The notes beneath the pieces are model-generated. The model was not told the origin of the DNA. It saw only the letters and a list, made by a program, of their open reading frames with translations, and made no database searches. 64,000 nt of DNA from Haloactinospora alba (lineage in GTDB: Bacteria; Actinomycetota; Actinomycetes; Streptosporangiales; Streptosporangiaceae), in contig NZ_VFQC01000001.1 in assembly GCF_006717075.1 (NCBI RefSeq), positions 3,457,501 to 3,521,500 on the forward strand, given 5' to 3'. A program made the position numbers and the translations under genes. Numbering within the stretch: the stretch's first letter is position 1; every line of letters begins with the position of its first letter. This document shows positions 9,526 to 23,013 of this stretch, piece by piece.

Positions 9526-10797
9526 CTACAGGCCCAGCGTGTTCGTGACCTGACCCACGGGGTTGGTCGCCCCGGAAGGCATGTTCTCGGCGGCCTCCTG
9601 CGGCACGCCGGACAGCTCGCTCGGGGCGGCGGACTCGGCGGTGTCCTGCGCGGCACCACTCTCGGAAAGCCCCGTGTCCAGGTCCACCGTCTCGTCCACC
9701 GAGGGCGCGGGGAGCTCGTTGGTCAGCTCCAGGGTCTCCCCGGCCGGGGCCTCGGGCAGCTGCTCGCCCGTGTTCAGGGTGTCGTCCACGGGGGTGTCGG
9801 GGAGCTCGTTGGTCAGCTCCTGCGCCTCACCGGTGGGAGCCGTCTGGGACTCCCGCTCCACCCCGCTCGTGTCCTCGGCCGCCATGCCGGTGCTGTGGGA
9901 CTTCGCTCCCTCGCTCACGATGGCGCCGGTGTCCTCGGCGGCCGCGCCCGCGACACCGCCCACGGCGCCGATGGCGTTGCCCGAGGCGTTCACCGGAACG
10001 TCCAGGTCCACGACGGCCTGGTTGCCGCCGAGCAGCGACCCGTTGCCGGAGGTGGAGATGTCGTCGCCGTGGCCGTGGCCCGCGGTCTGGTGCAGCACCG
10101 GGCCGGCGTCCACACTGTCGGTCTGCGCGTGCAGCGGTTCCGCGACCTCGCTCGCGCGGTCCAGCAGCGAGCCGGTGGTCGGCGCCGCCTGCGCGTGGCG
10201 CGCGTGCCCGCCGGAGGTGCCGCCCTCCTTCACCAGCGCGCCGGTGTCCTCGGCGGCCGCGCCCGCGACACCGCCGACAGCGCCGATGGCGTTGCCCGAG
10301 GCGTTCACCGGAACGTCCAGGTCACCAACGAGCTGGTTGCCGCCCACGGCGGAACCGTTGCCGGAGGTGGAGATGTCGTCGCCGTGGCCGCCCTCGATGA
10401 CGGCGGCGCCGCTGTGCTCGGCGGCCGCGCCGGCGGTGCCCAGCACCGCGCCGACGGAGTTGCCGGTGACGTTCACCGGGACATCCCCGTCGAGGACGGC
10501 CTGGTTGCCGCCGACCAGCGAGCCGTTGCCGCTAGTGGAGATGTCGCCGTTCTTGTCGTGCACCACGGCACCGGTGTGGTCGGCCTTGGCTCCGGCGATG
10601 CCGCCGACGGCGCCGATGGCGTTACCGGAGAGGTTCACCGGAACGTCGGCGTTGGCGACGAGCTGGTTGCCGCCCAGCACCGACCCGTTGCCCGAGGTGC
10701 TCGGGTGGCTGTCGGCGAACGAGACGCCGGCGCCGAGCGCCACGAATCCGGCTGTCAGCAGCGCGGTATGTGCCGAAGTGCGCACCCACTTGCGCAT
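9526..10797 (-). CDS. Secreted multi-chaplin protein, four chaplin domains, no cysteine
   Basis: A 423-residue exported protein. ATG at 10797 follows a GAGGAC ribosome site and opens a signal peptide (residues 1-28, ending GVSFA). Four chaplin (DUF320-type) domains start at about residues 33, 87, 143 and 248, each with STSGNGS, GGNQ, DVPVN, SGNAIGAVGG-like and AGA segments. The two Cys positions of classical chaplins are replaced by Ser/Ala/Thr, and no Cys occurs anywhere in the protein. The last 125 residues are an acidic Pro/Thr-rich tail with imperfect ELTNELP repeats. There is no LPXTG or membrane anchor. Chaplins self-assemble into amyloid-like hydrophobic coats on aerial hyphae and spores. 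Secretion without wall anchoring is inferred. Confidence 0.85.
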   Translation of the reverse strand: MRKWVRTSAHTALLTAGFVALGAGVSFADSHPSTSGNGSVLGGNQLVANADVPVNLSGNAIGAVGGIAGAKADHTGAVVHDKNGDISTSGNGSLVGGNQAVLDGDVPVNVTGNSVGAVLGTAGAAAEHSGAAVIEGGHGDDISTSGNGSAVGGNQLVGDLDVPVNASGNAIGAVGGVAGAAAEDTGALVKEGGTSGGHARHAQAAPTTGSLLDRASEVAEPLHAQTDSVDAGPVLHQTAGHGHGDDISTSGNGSLLGGNQAVVDLDVPVNASGNAIGAVGGVAGAAAEDTGAIVSEGAKSHSTGMAAEDTSGVERESQTAPTGEAQELTNELPDTPVDDTLNTGEQLPEAPAGETLELTNELPAPSVDETVDLDTGLSESGAAQDTAESAAPSELSGVPQEAAENMPSGATNPVGQVTNTLGL

Positions 10798-11000
10798 GTG
10801 AAGGTCCTCTCGAACGAAATTCGCGGATGAGATGAAATGAACCAACCCCCGAGGGCTCCTGCGCTCCTGGAGGGAGCGCGGACCTCCGTGGCCTGGCTGC
10901 CATCCCGCCGCCCCGTATCTGGCCGAGTACGGGCCCGCCGGATGCGGTGGGGGGCACGCAGCGTGTCCCGCCGGATGCGGGAACGTGGCGCACGCCCGGT

Positions 11001-11028
11001 CAGCCCCGCTCTGGATGAGCGGGGGCTG
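11001..11028. terminator. Hairpin upstream of the four-domain chaplin
   Basis: CAGCCCCGCT pairs with AGCGGGGGCTG around a short loop. It is the second of two GC-rich hairpins in the 309-bp gap (10798-11106) between the chaplin genes. It may attenuate or end read-through from the LPXTG chaplin. No other gene is visible in this gap. Confidence 0.5.
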
Positions 11029-11072
11029 GCGTGAATCCCGCCGCACGGCTGCCGCGCCGCGGGACTCGCGCC

Positions 11073-11098
11073 AGCCCCCGACACGCGGGTCGGGGGCT
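11073..11098 (-). terminator. Terminator of the LPXTG chaplin gene
   Basis: A 10-bp stem AGCCCCCGAC/GTCGGGGGCT with loop acgcgg starts 9 bp past the minus-strand stop of the LPXTG chaplin gene. Confidence 0.7.
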
Positions 11099-11106
11099 GC
11101 GTGGGA

Positions 11107-11838
11107 TTACCCCTCGGCGCGGGCCTTGCGGAACCTGCTCAGCGCGATCGCGCCGGCTCCGGCGAGGACGGCCGCCAGGGCGGCGCCGACCATCGCCAGC
11201 GCGTTGGCGCCGGTGGTGGGCAGGCTGTCGTCGTCACTCTGGTTCACCGCGGGCTCGGTATCCGCGGAAGGGGACTCCTCGGGCTTTTCCTCGGACGGGG
11301 CTTCCGTGGTTGGGGAGGGGTCGGGTTCACTGTCGTCCTCCTCCGGCGGCGCGGTCGGGTCCTCGGGGGTGGGCTCCGGTGTGGGGTCGGGGTTCTCCTT
11401 GTCGCCGTCCTCGGGCGGGTTGTGGGGTTCGGTGCCGTCCGGGCCGTCCTCGTCGACCTCGGCGCCGCTGTCCTCGCAGTCGGCACCGGCGTTGCCGGCG
11501 ACGCCGACCGCGTTGCCGCAGCCGTTCACGGGGACGTCCGCGTCGGCGTCCGCCTGGTTGCCGCCGACGATCGAGCCGTCGCCGCTCGTGCTGGTGTCCC
11601 CCGAGTCGCCCTCCTCGACCTTGGCGCCGCTGTCCTCGCACTTGGCGCCGGCCACACCCAGCACCGCGACCGCGTTGCCGCAGAGGTTCACGGGGACGTC
11701 CGCGTCAGCGTCCACCTGGTTACCGCCGCCGATCGACCCGTTCCCGCTCGTGCTGGTGTCGGCGTGGGCGAGGGGGGCGGTGGAGAGGACCCCGGCTGCC
11801 GCGAGGGCCGCGAGTGTTCCTACGGACGTTTTCGACAT
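11107..11838 (-). CDS. Cell-wall-anchored long chaplin (LPXTG), two chaplin domains
   Basis: A 243-residue surface protein with signal peptide 1-26 (APLAHA). Two chaplin domains lie at about 28-73 and 81-126, each with a cysteine pair (Cys53/67 and Cys107/121) expected to form a disulfide. An acidic Pro/Glu/Asp-rich spacer spans about 128-204. It ends with a sortase signal, LPTTG at 206-210, a hydrophobic segment and a basic RFRKARAEG tail. This is the architecture of the long chaplins ChpA-C of Streptomyces. No sortase gene lies in the window. A GGAAGGAG ribosome site precedes ATG at 11838. Confidence 0.9.
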   Translation of the reverse strand: MSKTSVGTLAALAAAGVLSTAPLAHADTSTSGNGSIGGGNQVDADADVPVNLCGNAVAVLGVAGAKCEDSGAKVEEGDSGDTSTSGDGSIVGGNQADADADVPVNGCGNAVGVAGNAGADCEDSGAEVDEDGPDGTEPHNPPEDGDKENPDPTPEPTPEDPTAPPEEDDSEPDPSPTTEAPSEEKPEESPSADTEPAVNQSDDDSLPTTGANALAMVGAALAAVLAGAGAIALSRFRKARAEG

Positions 11839-11851
11839 GACGTCTCCTTCC

Positions 11852-11877
11852 GGATTTCAGAATTGGATTTCGGAATT
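11852..11877. repeat. 13-bp tandem repeat in the leader of the LPXTG chaplin
   Basis: GGATTTCAGAATT and GGATTTCGGAATT lie end to end directly upstream of the ribosome site on the minus strand. The AT-rich pair stands out against its surroundings and could be an operator or mRNA element. No binding protein can be named. Confidence 0.55.
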
Positions 11878-12024
11878 ACGTGGAGTGAGGTTCGACATTG
11901 CGACATGTCAGCAGGAAGAGTGACTGACTAGGTGCGCTGTGTGTCCAGACGGGGTGTCACTCGCGCGTCTCGGGCGCGGAAAGGCCCGCGTTCAGCCGCT
12001 TCGTCGCTGACAGTGCGGAAAGGG

Positions 12025-20360: not shown

Positions 20361-21659
20361 CAGGGCTATTTCATTCTCGGGTGTGGCGGGTGTAGCTGCT
20401 GGTCAGGGGAGCCTGAGAAGGTCAAGGGGACGGGTGAAGCACTCGTAGCTCACCCATCGGTAGGCCGCGGGGATACTCGCGAACCCCAGCCCTGCCAGCA
20501 CCCCGATCGCCACATCGCGCAGCAGCGCCATGTTCTGCGGAGCGTTGCCTGTGCGCACCCGTGAGGCGTCCTCGCCCAAGCTCACATCGCGGATGTGGTG
20601 GCGGGCCTCGATGCCCCAGTGCCCGCGCACCAGGCTCGCCAGTTCTGCGGCCGTGACGCTTTCGGCCGGCAGGCTCGTGACCAGGTAGGCGTAGCTGCGC
20701 CGGACTCTGCCCGTACAGGACTCGCGCACCCATCGATGAATACGCATCACCTGACGGGCGTGGGGAAATGCGATGCGCGGTGCGGTCAGCACCTTGGCGG
20801 TGCGCACCTCGACCCGCCCGTGGGCGTGCTCACGGGCGGCCTCCAGCACCGGCGCCTGCGCCCAGGGCAGCGCTTTGGCCTGGGAAAGCAATGTGGGCTG
20901 GTTCGCCTTGACTGTCAGCAGGTACTCAGCCCCGCGTGCGACGAGCCAGCGGGCAGTGCCGAGTTGGGTGTGCAGCGCATCGGCGCTGATCACACACCCC
21001 GTGATGTCGACGTCGGCCAGCAGGTCGGCCACGGCGGCCATCTCACTGGCCTTGTCGTCCACGCGGACCTGGGCGACGGTGCGTCCGGCCGGGGTCATCG
21101 CCTGGAGCAGATGGGCGGCCGCAGCGGTGCGGGTGGCCGAGCCGCGCAGGCTCTTGCCGTCCATGACCAGCACCGCGATCTCCTCGGCGGTGTGGAGCCG
21201 GGTGAGCGTCTGCGGGTCCAGGGCGGTGAGGACGCGGCGGATCGTGGCGGGGCTGGGCGCCTGGCGGGTGCCCAGGGCGGGGTCGGTGATGCGGGCGCCG
21301 AGCCGGGCGAGGGTGTGCTGGGGCGCGTTGGCGGCCCACTGGCCGATCGCGGCCAGGCAGCGGGCGCCGGCCAGCACCGCGCACAAACCGGTGAGGATCA
21401 CGCAGCTCAGCGGGTGGCGGCGTCCCCGCCGGTCGCGGGGATCACTGTCCTCGGCGGGCAGGATCGGCGTCGCGGACGCGGCCAGGGCGGACGAGGGCAT
21501 GGCAGACTGAAGGCGCAACGGAGTCCCTTGGAAGTCAGAGATGTGAGAGTCCCTGCTCTTCTAGCGGGCTCCGTTGTCGTGTGTGCGGGCTTCTTCTGGA
21601 TCGCTACAGGGCTGTGACCGGCTCCGCCATCATCCGCACCCGACTTTGAAACCGCCCTG
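20361..21659 (-). mobile_element. ISAs1-family insertion sequence, 1299 bp
   Basis: The ends are imperfect 26-bp inverted repeats beginning CAGGGC: the left end at 20361-20386 and the reverse complement at 21634-21659 agree at about 21 of 26 positions. Identical 9-bp duplications flank the element. It carries one transposase gene. Length, ends and duplication size all fit ISAs1. Intact ends and an uninterrupted transposase suggest a recent insertion. Confidence 0.88.
20403..21518 (-). CDS. ISAs1-family DDE transposase
   Basis: 371 residues from TTG at 21518 (AAGGGA upstream); ATG at 21500 is an alternative. The N-terminal domain has DPRDRRGRRHPL and LAAIGQW. The catalytic core includes VMDGKSLRGS (first Asp), CVISADALHTQ (second Asp) and HWGIEARHHIRDVSLGEDAS (Glu helix), then RTGNAPQNMALLRDVAIG. 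It cuts and moves its own element. No frameshift is seen. Confidence 0.93.
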   Translation of the reverse strand: MRLQSAMPSSALAASATPILPAEDSDPRDRRGRRHPLSCVILTGLCAVLAGARCLAAIGQWAANAPQHTLARLGARITDPALGTRQAPSPATIRRVLTALDPQTLTRLHTAEEIAVLVMDGKSLRGSATRTAAAAHLLQAMTPAGRTVAQVRVDDKASEMAAVADLLADVDITGCVISADALHTQLGTARWLVARGAEYLLTVKANQPTLLSQAKALPWAQAPVLEAAREHAHGRVEVRTAKVLTAPRIAFPHARQVMRIHRWVRESCTGRVRRSYAYLVTSLPAESVTAAELASLVRGHWGIEARHHIRDVSLGEDASRVRTGNAPQNMALLRDVAIGVLAGLGFASIPAAYRWVSYECFTRPLDLLRLP

Positions 21660-21710: not shown

Positions 21711-21736
21711 GGGGTGCCCTGTCCGCAGGGCACCCC
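21711..21736 (-). terminator. Strong hairpin beyond the CRISPR array, candidate pre-crRNA terminator
   Basis: An 11-bp perfect stem GGGGTGCCCTG/CAGGGCACCCC with loop tccg. On the minus strand it lies just past the last (altered) repeat and is followed by GTTATTTCCC, so it could end minus-strand array transcription. Confidence 0.6.
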
Positions 21737-21766: not shown

Positions 21767-22739
21767 GATGGTCTGCCTCATCCGCTCCGAAGAGCGGATG
21801 AGGCAGTTCGCGTTCGTGTAGTCGTCGCGGCCGCGCAGGTTGCGATCCTCATCCGCTCCGAAGAGCGGATGCAACATCCGACAGCGCGGACTCAGAGCAC
21901 TCCCCCTGGTTGCGATCCTCATCCGCTCCGAAGAGCGGATGCAACGGGGCGTTTCCGAGACGCTTGGAACGCGATTCGACAGGTTGCGATCCTCATCCGC
22001 TCCGAAGAGCGGATGCAACGGGCTACTTAGGAGGACCTAACGATGAGCGAACGTTGCGATCCTCATCCGCTCCGAAGAGCGGATGCAACGCCGCGCCGCC
22101 GCCAGGTTGGTCCGCGTCGCGGAAGTTGCGATCCTCATCCGCTCCGAAGAGCGGATGCAACAACTGCGCATACGGACGTGTGACCATGGCAGGCAGTTGC
22201 GATCCTCATCCGCTCCGAAGAGCGGATGCAACGCGGGGAACTGCAAACCGGCACGCAGCGGAGAGGCTAGTTGCGATCCTCATCCGCTCCGAAGAGCGGA
22301 TGCAACTCATGCTTGACGCTTCCCACCTGGTCAGCAGCGAGGGTTGCGATCCTCATCCGCTCCGAAGAGCGGATGCAACCCCATGACCAGGTAGGACCCA
22401 TGACCTTCCCTCCAGAGTTGCGATCCTCATCCGCTCCGAAGAGCGGATGCAACGTTGGTTCCCAGCAGCTCGGCGTGGTCGGGGCCGTTGCGATCCTCAT
22501 CCGCTCCGAAGAGCGGATGCAACCCCACCGGAAGGAACCGGCAAGATGCTTGCGGCGGTGGTTGCGATCCTCATCCGCTCCGAAGAGCGGATGCAACGTG
22601 GGAATCACACCAGCGGCCGCAGCATTCGGAGTTGCGATCCTCATCCGCTCCGAAGAGCGGATGCAACGCATGCGACTGAGCAGCTCGTCCCGAGGGATTC
22701 CGGTTGCGATCCTCATCCGCTCCGAAGAGCGGATGCAAC
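21767..22739 (-). CRISPR. CRISPR array, 13 full 37-bp repeats plus one altered terminal repeat
   Basis: Full identical repeats start at 21839, 21909, 21983, 22053, 22125, 22196, 22270, 22343, 22417, 22487, 22561, 22631 and 22703. The 12 spacers between them are 33-37 nt. A diverged repeat at about 21767-21803 closes a thirteenth spacer (21804-21838). Read on the minus strand, each repeat begins GTTGCATCCGCTC, forms a 9-bp stem with a cTTCGg tetraloop and ends GGATCGCAAC, the position of an 8-nt crRNA handle (ATCGCAAC). That form, plus the diverged repeat at the low-coordinate end, suggests minus-strand transcription. No cas gene lies in the window. I cannot assign a subtype with confidence. 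Confidence 0.97.
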
Positions 22740-22880
22740 GGCAGGTGACCAGGGAAAACGCCATCGCTTCCCTTAACAAAGTTCACCATGCCCATGAGAT
22801 TGCTACCTTACTGTCCGATTCTTGCTTGAGAACCACCCCGGAACCACATGACCACTCCCGGTTCCTAAGCTGGTCCCACC
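22740..22880 (-). promoter_or_regulatory. Probable CRISPR leader
   Basis: The 140 bp beyond the last full repeat are less GC-rich than the surroundings (gggaaaacgcc, cttaacaaagttc, gagattgctaccttactg). They lie at the end opposite the altered repeat, where a leader is expected for minus-strand transcription. I see no gene in 22740-23013. Confidence 0.55.
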
Positions 22881-23013
22881 AGACCTTTGGAGACAGCCAT
22901 TATCGTACAGATGCCTCGACCCTCGTGGACATCTTCCGTTGGTTCCGGGAAAGTACGAAGGATCGACTCGGTGAACGTCGCCTAGCTGGGCCGTCCCCGG
23001 GGCACCGCAGACA

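Follow-up and report, generated by a model that had tools for sequence, protein, structure and literature searches.

Among described CRISPR systems, the closest to the array reported here are of type I-C, whose Cas5c (Cas5d) yields a crRNA handle of 11 nt (PMC5965380). Isolated arrays have been described as remnants or as remote partners (PMC5294841), and cas genes are present in just over half of the array-bearing genomes of Streptomyces (PMC12231136). The window, i.e. the whole 64-kb stretch of DNA analysed, contains such an isolated array (Table 1), and blastn of this array against plasmids returned arrays in Streptomyces linear plasmids that adjoin annotated type I-C cas5c, cas8c, cas7c, cas4, cas1c and cas2 genes. 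The Streptomyces I-C repeats (e.g. GTGGCGGTCGCCCTCCGGGGCGACCGAGGATCGCAAC) are 37 nt long and end in the 3′ dodecamer GAGGATCGCAAC, which is the same in the minus-strand repeat of the window. Closer to the host, Cas8c was found in 35 of the 343 genomes of its family, and the arrays at these loci mostly follow the 4-9-4-9-11 layout that is also read in the window. The Streptomyces I-C arrays at L037 and L038 are heavily degraded, with repeats that are mostly divergent and a GAGGATCGCAAC end that is often retained.

The earlier note on this DNA had described a CRISPR array with thirteen identical repeats, and the window indeed holds 13 exact copies of GTTGCGATCCTCATCCGCTCCGAAGAGCGGATGCAAC (minus-strand form, GTTGCATCCGCTCTTCGGAGCGGATGAGGATCGCAAC), which start 70–74 nt apart and enclose 12 distinct, non-repeating spacers. 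The minus-strand repeat consists of 4 nt, a 9-bp stem with all nine pairs intact and a 4-nt loop (cTTCGg), the 9-nt return strand and an 11-nt 3′ end, AGGATCGCAAC. The family and Streptomyces I-C arrays have in common with it the 37-nt repeat, the 9-bp stem, the 4-nt loop and the 3′ GAGGATCGCAAC, as well as spacers of ∼33–37 nt and the leader motifs. The stem sequence and the GTTG 5′ end of the window repeat, however, are absent from the cas-linked I-C arrays of the family, and the window differs from these loci in having no cas operon, a single array and a terminal repeat that forms a 15-bp hairpin. The window and Streptomyces repeats are unlike at four of the nine pairs of the stem, each time through a compensatory change. 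Across 26 distinct repeats, two-sided change occurs in eight of the nine pairs and 94.4% of cells are paired, compared with at most 47% in slid-partner controls. Length, stem position and 3′ sequence thus agree with those of cas-linked I-C arrays, the stem is kept by compensatory change, and a I-C leader lies at the upstream end defined by the handle (see below); on these grounds the repeat-type classification proposed in the earlier note returns type I-C. Repeat covariation and leader homology are therefore sufficient to assign a type and an orientation to an array without cas genes, and the present one is a new but fairly ordinary example of a well-known kind. The assignment also bears on the handle, for which an 8-nt form had been put forward together with the minus-strand cTTCGg stem: the stem stands, whereas ATCGCAAC makes up only the last 8 of the 11 nt that follow it. 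As the repeat is of type I-C, the 11-nt Cas5c handle AGGATCGCAAC, starting right after the stem, is predicted rather than an 8-nt handle of the Cas6 style.

Table 1. Features of the array and its flanks, in window coordinates.
Feature	Position	Strand	Remarks
ISAs1-like transposase	20403..21518	-	PF13808 and PF01609; adjoins the leader-distal end
12-bp G+C-rich hairpin	21711..21736	.	Possible terminator, no T tract; beyond the array
Degenerate terminal (14th) repeat	21773..21806	-	25-nt core kept, both ends lost
13th (leader-distal) spacer	21807..21839	-	33 nt; separates the degenerate repeat from the first intact one
CRISPR array	21840..22739	-	13 identical 37-nt repeats and 12 spacers of 33–37 nt
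Leader of type I-C kind	22740..22889	-	Position weight matrix (PWM) from 42 I-C leaders and pairwise alignment

The direction of the array is set by its leader. The right flank has a GC content of 54%, compared with 71% for the window and 63–64% for the left flank, and carries a distal motif (GCTT.GGAACCGGGAGTGG) ∼130 nt ahead of the first repeat and a junction motif, GTTTTCCCTGGTCACCTGCC. We scored 150-mers on both strands of the window with a PWM built from 42 type I-C leaders, and the minus strand of the 150 nt to the right of the array gave 18.6 bits, the highest value in the window (next, 8.6), a score that was reached by none of 5000 shuffles and that falls within the range of true leaders in leave-one-out scoring (quartiles 6.8 to 44.7). 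The match to I-C leaders is in register, and pairwise alignment gave z values of 10–13 with five leaders, one of which belongs to an orphan I-C array (L077), whereas alignments of the left flank with leaders had a median near 0. The suggestion of a leader at the high-coordinate end and of minus-strand reading is thus borne out, and the latter may be regarded as well supported by sequence comparison. It remains to weigh the readings in which the array is some other interspersed hairpin repeat, not CRISPR, or is transcribed from the plus strand with a leader at its left end. The repeat is nearly palindromic and its ends are alike on both strands, as these readings would allow, but its homology to cas-linked I-C arrays and to their leader, together with the poor values of the left flank as a plus-strand leader (−12.7 bits over 150 nt, compared with 18.6 for the right flank; junction z 1.0–1.4), makes them extremely improbable.

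Absence of local cas genes, noted earlier, was confirmed. No match to the Cas1, Cas6, RAMP, Cas10, Cas8c or Cas5c families was obtained within the 64-kb window, and tblastn of the open reading frames (ORFs) of I-C cas regions against the window likewise returned nothing, cas fragments beside the array included. The ORFs flanking the array have no neighbourhood in common with I-C loci; their matches to such loci are confined to the transposase (L060) and to a spurious ORF within the array that matches other arrays only. The search of the genome for cas operons and identical repeats, which the earlier note had also proposed, was run on an assembly of 4.94 Mb in four contigs (98.65% complete). 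It yielded a type I-B locus, a III-B operon and two loci of I-E-like appearance, but no match to Cas8c or Cas5c at E values up to 1, and Cas1 was found only in the I-B locus and at the two loci with I-E-looking arrays, none being I-C-like. Further copies of the repeat were sought with up to three mismatches, and none was found in the genome outside the array or in 299 genomes of the family; a scan for the exact repeat in a contig set of 85 000 species also gave no copy, and a relaxed pattern retrieved two hits, both of them single repeats within degraded arrays of Streptomyces. No convincing protospacer was identified for any spacer by blastn against phages and plasmids or by exact scans of IMG/VR; in Streptomyces, 99.5% of spacers match nothing known (PMC12231136).

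The array is thus very probably an orphaned type I-C array, read from the minus strand, that was most likely stranded recently and is now an unprocessed, non-growing remnant. Of the two options previously offered, a distant system or a relic, we lean to the second, as the genome contains neither Cas8c nor Cas5c, nor a I-C-like Cas1, and the repeats of the resident systems differ. The 13 repeats show no differences among them (zero divergence; 95% upper bound 0.6% per site), which suggests that the operon was lost recently or that the array is still maintained; instead of decay, identical repeats could reflect selection or use in the recent past. Hence, of the description 'active or recently active', the second part is favoured by the repeats and the first is unsupported. 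While the cognate I-C system was present, the leader would have driven a transcript toward lower coordinates, with Cas1-Cas2-Cas4 inserting new spacers next to the leader. Cleavage by Cas5c on the 3′ side of every 9-bp stem would have yielded crRNAs with the 11-nt handle, and these presumably served a Cas5c-Cas8c-Cas7c complex with Cas3. The I-C cas operon would since have been lost from the genome, leaving the array stranded, and any transcript still made would probably stop at strong hairpins at the array's end.

Could the array be the distant working member of a complete I-C system that the strain possesses and the assembly lacks, through a gap or a lost plasmid? The 13 identical repeats, the intact leader and the four-contig assembly would fit such a view, as would the occurrence of Streptomyces I-C systems on plasmids, and a cas operon might have been missed in an assembly of this completeness. 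Against this, neither Cas8c nor Cas5c left a trace in sequence that is 98.65% complete, and the repeat does not recur in a second array at up to three mismatches, whereas two arrays are usual at the I-C loci of the family; we consider this explanation highly improbable.

Use of the array by resident systems requires closer inspection of these. The type I-B locus on contig C1 encodes Cas6b, Cas8b, Cas7, a Cas5-Cas3 fusion, Cas4, Cas1 (recognised as Cas1b) and Cas2, and is flanked by two arrays with 31-nt repeats, GTTCACTCATCATCCCTGGAGGGATCGCAAC in the left-hand array and GTTCACTCATCACCCCTGGAGGGATCGCAAG in the right-hand one. The repeats of these arrays (L018:1347-2168 and 10742-11961) differ from each other in the last base (CAAC versus CAAG) and in one inner base. 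A second, stand-alone Cas6b (L028:14364-15053; G000:C1, ∼2.386 Mb), 97% identical to that of the operon, sits 2.2 Mb from the I-B locus, and the surrounding ∼40 kb that were read showed no array. A III-B operon on contig C2 (L024:12280-19761 and further upstream to G000:C2:405473) comprises Cmr1, Cmr3-6, a CARF protein and a membrane protein of Mem_01 type, preceded by a Cas10 palm domain; no array was present in the ∼20 kb read on each side (40 kb). The repeats at the remaining two Cas1 loci resemble those of type I-E. The last 10 nt of the left I-B repeat, GGATCGCAAC, are common to the window repeat, and this first suggested use in trans. Cas6b would then cleave the minus-strand transcript ahead of ATCGCAAC, so that the crRNAs would carry the same 8-nt handle as those of the resident I-B array and enter the I-B or the III-B Cmr complex. 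The near-identical duplication of Cas6b, the III-B operon with Cas10 and no array nearby, and the strong overlap published for I-B and III-B repeats (PMC12814883) are in line with such a scheme. However, the resemblance to the resident arrays is limited to these 3′ 10 nt: their repeats are of 31 nt with a different 5′ half and a short stem placed right at the cut, they are linked to Cas6b, and the window has neither their repeat nor their leader. The 9-bp stem of the window repeat ends 3 nt before the putative Cas6b cut, which is the Cas5c position, and its leader is of I-C type and aligns with the I-B leader no better than do shuffles. Given where the stem lies and that the leader is of I-C type, use in trans by Cas6b with I-B or III-B effectors is unlikely, and the fuller version, in which the duplicated Cas6b trims the I-C transcript via ATCGCAAC to feed III-B Cmr or I-B while a rebuilt hairpin caps the transcript, is very unlikely. 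Membership of the array in the resident I-B or III-B system was the initial idea and was abandoned as the leading explanation when the I-C repeats came to light. The two modes of cutting would be told apart by the 5′ start of the crRNAs, AUCGCAAC for Cas6b and AGGAUCGCAAC for Cas5c.

Orphan I-C arrays recur in the family and are not rare. At least one adjacent pair of I-C repeats is held by 21 Cas8c-negative family genomes, and at least five adjacent pairs by nine of 308, the window genome included. The orphan I-C arrays at L074-L077 resemble that of the window in combining I-C repeats and leader with a genome that lacks Cas8c, and the leader of L077 is among the two most similar to the window leader, whereas spacers and stem are different. 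Three Cas8c-negative sister genomes (L074-L076, arrays near 9.0–10.1 kb) have an orphan I-C array in common, with the same leader-end spacers; there is a difference of nine inner spacers and no new spacer has been gained at the leader end, as in a frozen array. Within this set of orphans, spacers are common to the sister genomes G007, G286 and G299. With orphans that recur and spacers that are kept in sisters, it becomes testable whether stranded arrays decay or are borrowed by resident systems.

At the leader-distal end, an altered repeat had been placed at low coordinates, where a degenerate copy was found. It has lost the ATCGCAAC portion of the handle and folds as a perfect 15-bp hairpin, CTGCCTCATCCGCTC-TTCG-GAGCGGATGAGGCAG. 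This stem is the longest in a comparison of the downstream ends of ∼50 arrays or array segments, in which the second longest measures 9 bp. A scan for promoter and terminator consensus sequences was negative, with no T-tract terminator, and the 15-bp and 12-bp hairpins may together end the transcript. The succession of a 15-bp terminal hairpin and a 12-bp hairpin was not seen at the other I-C array ends examined. The adjoining ISAs1-like transposase is a possible agent of rearrangement. A close relative of this transposase (80% amino acid identity over 197 residues) is found near the I-C locus of L060.
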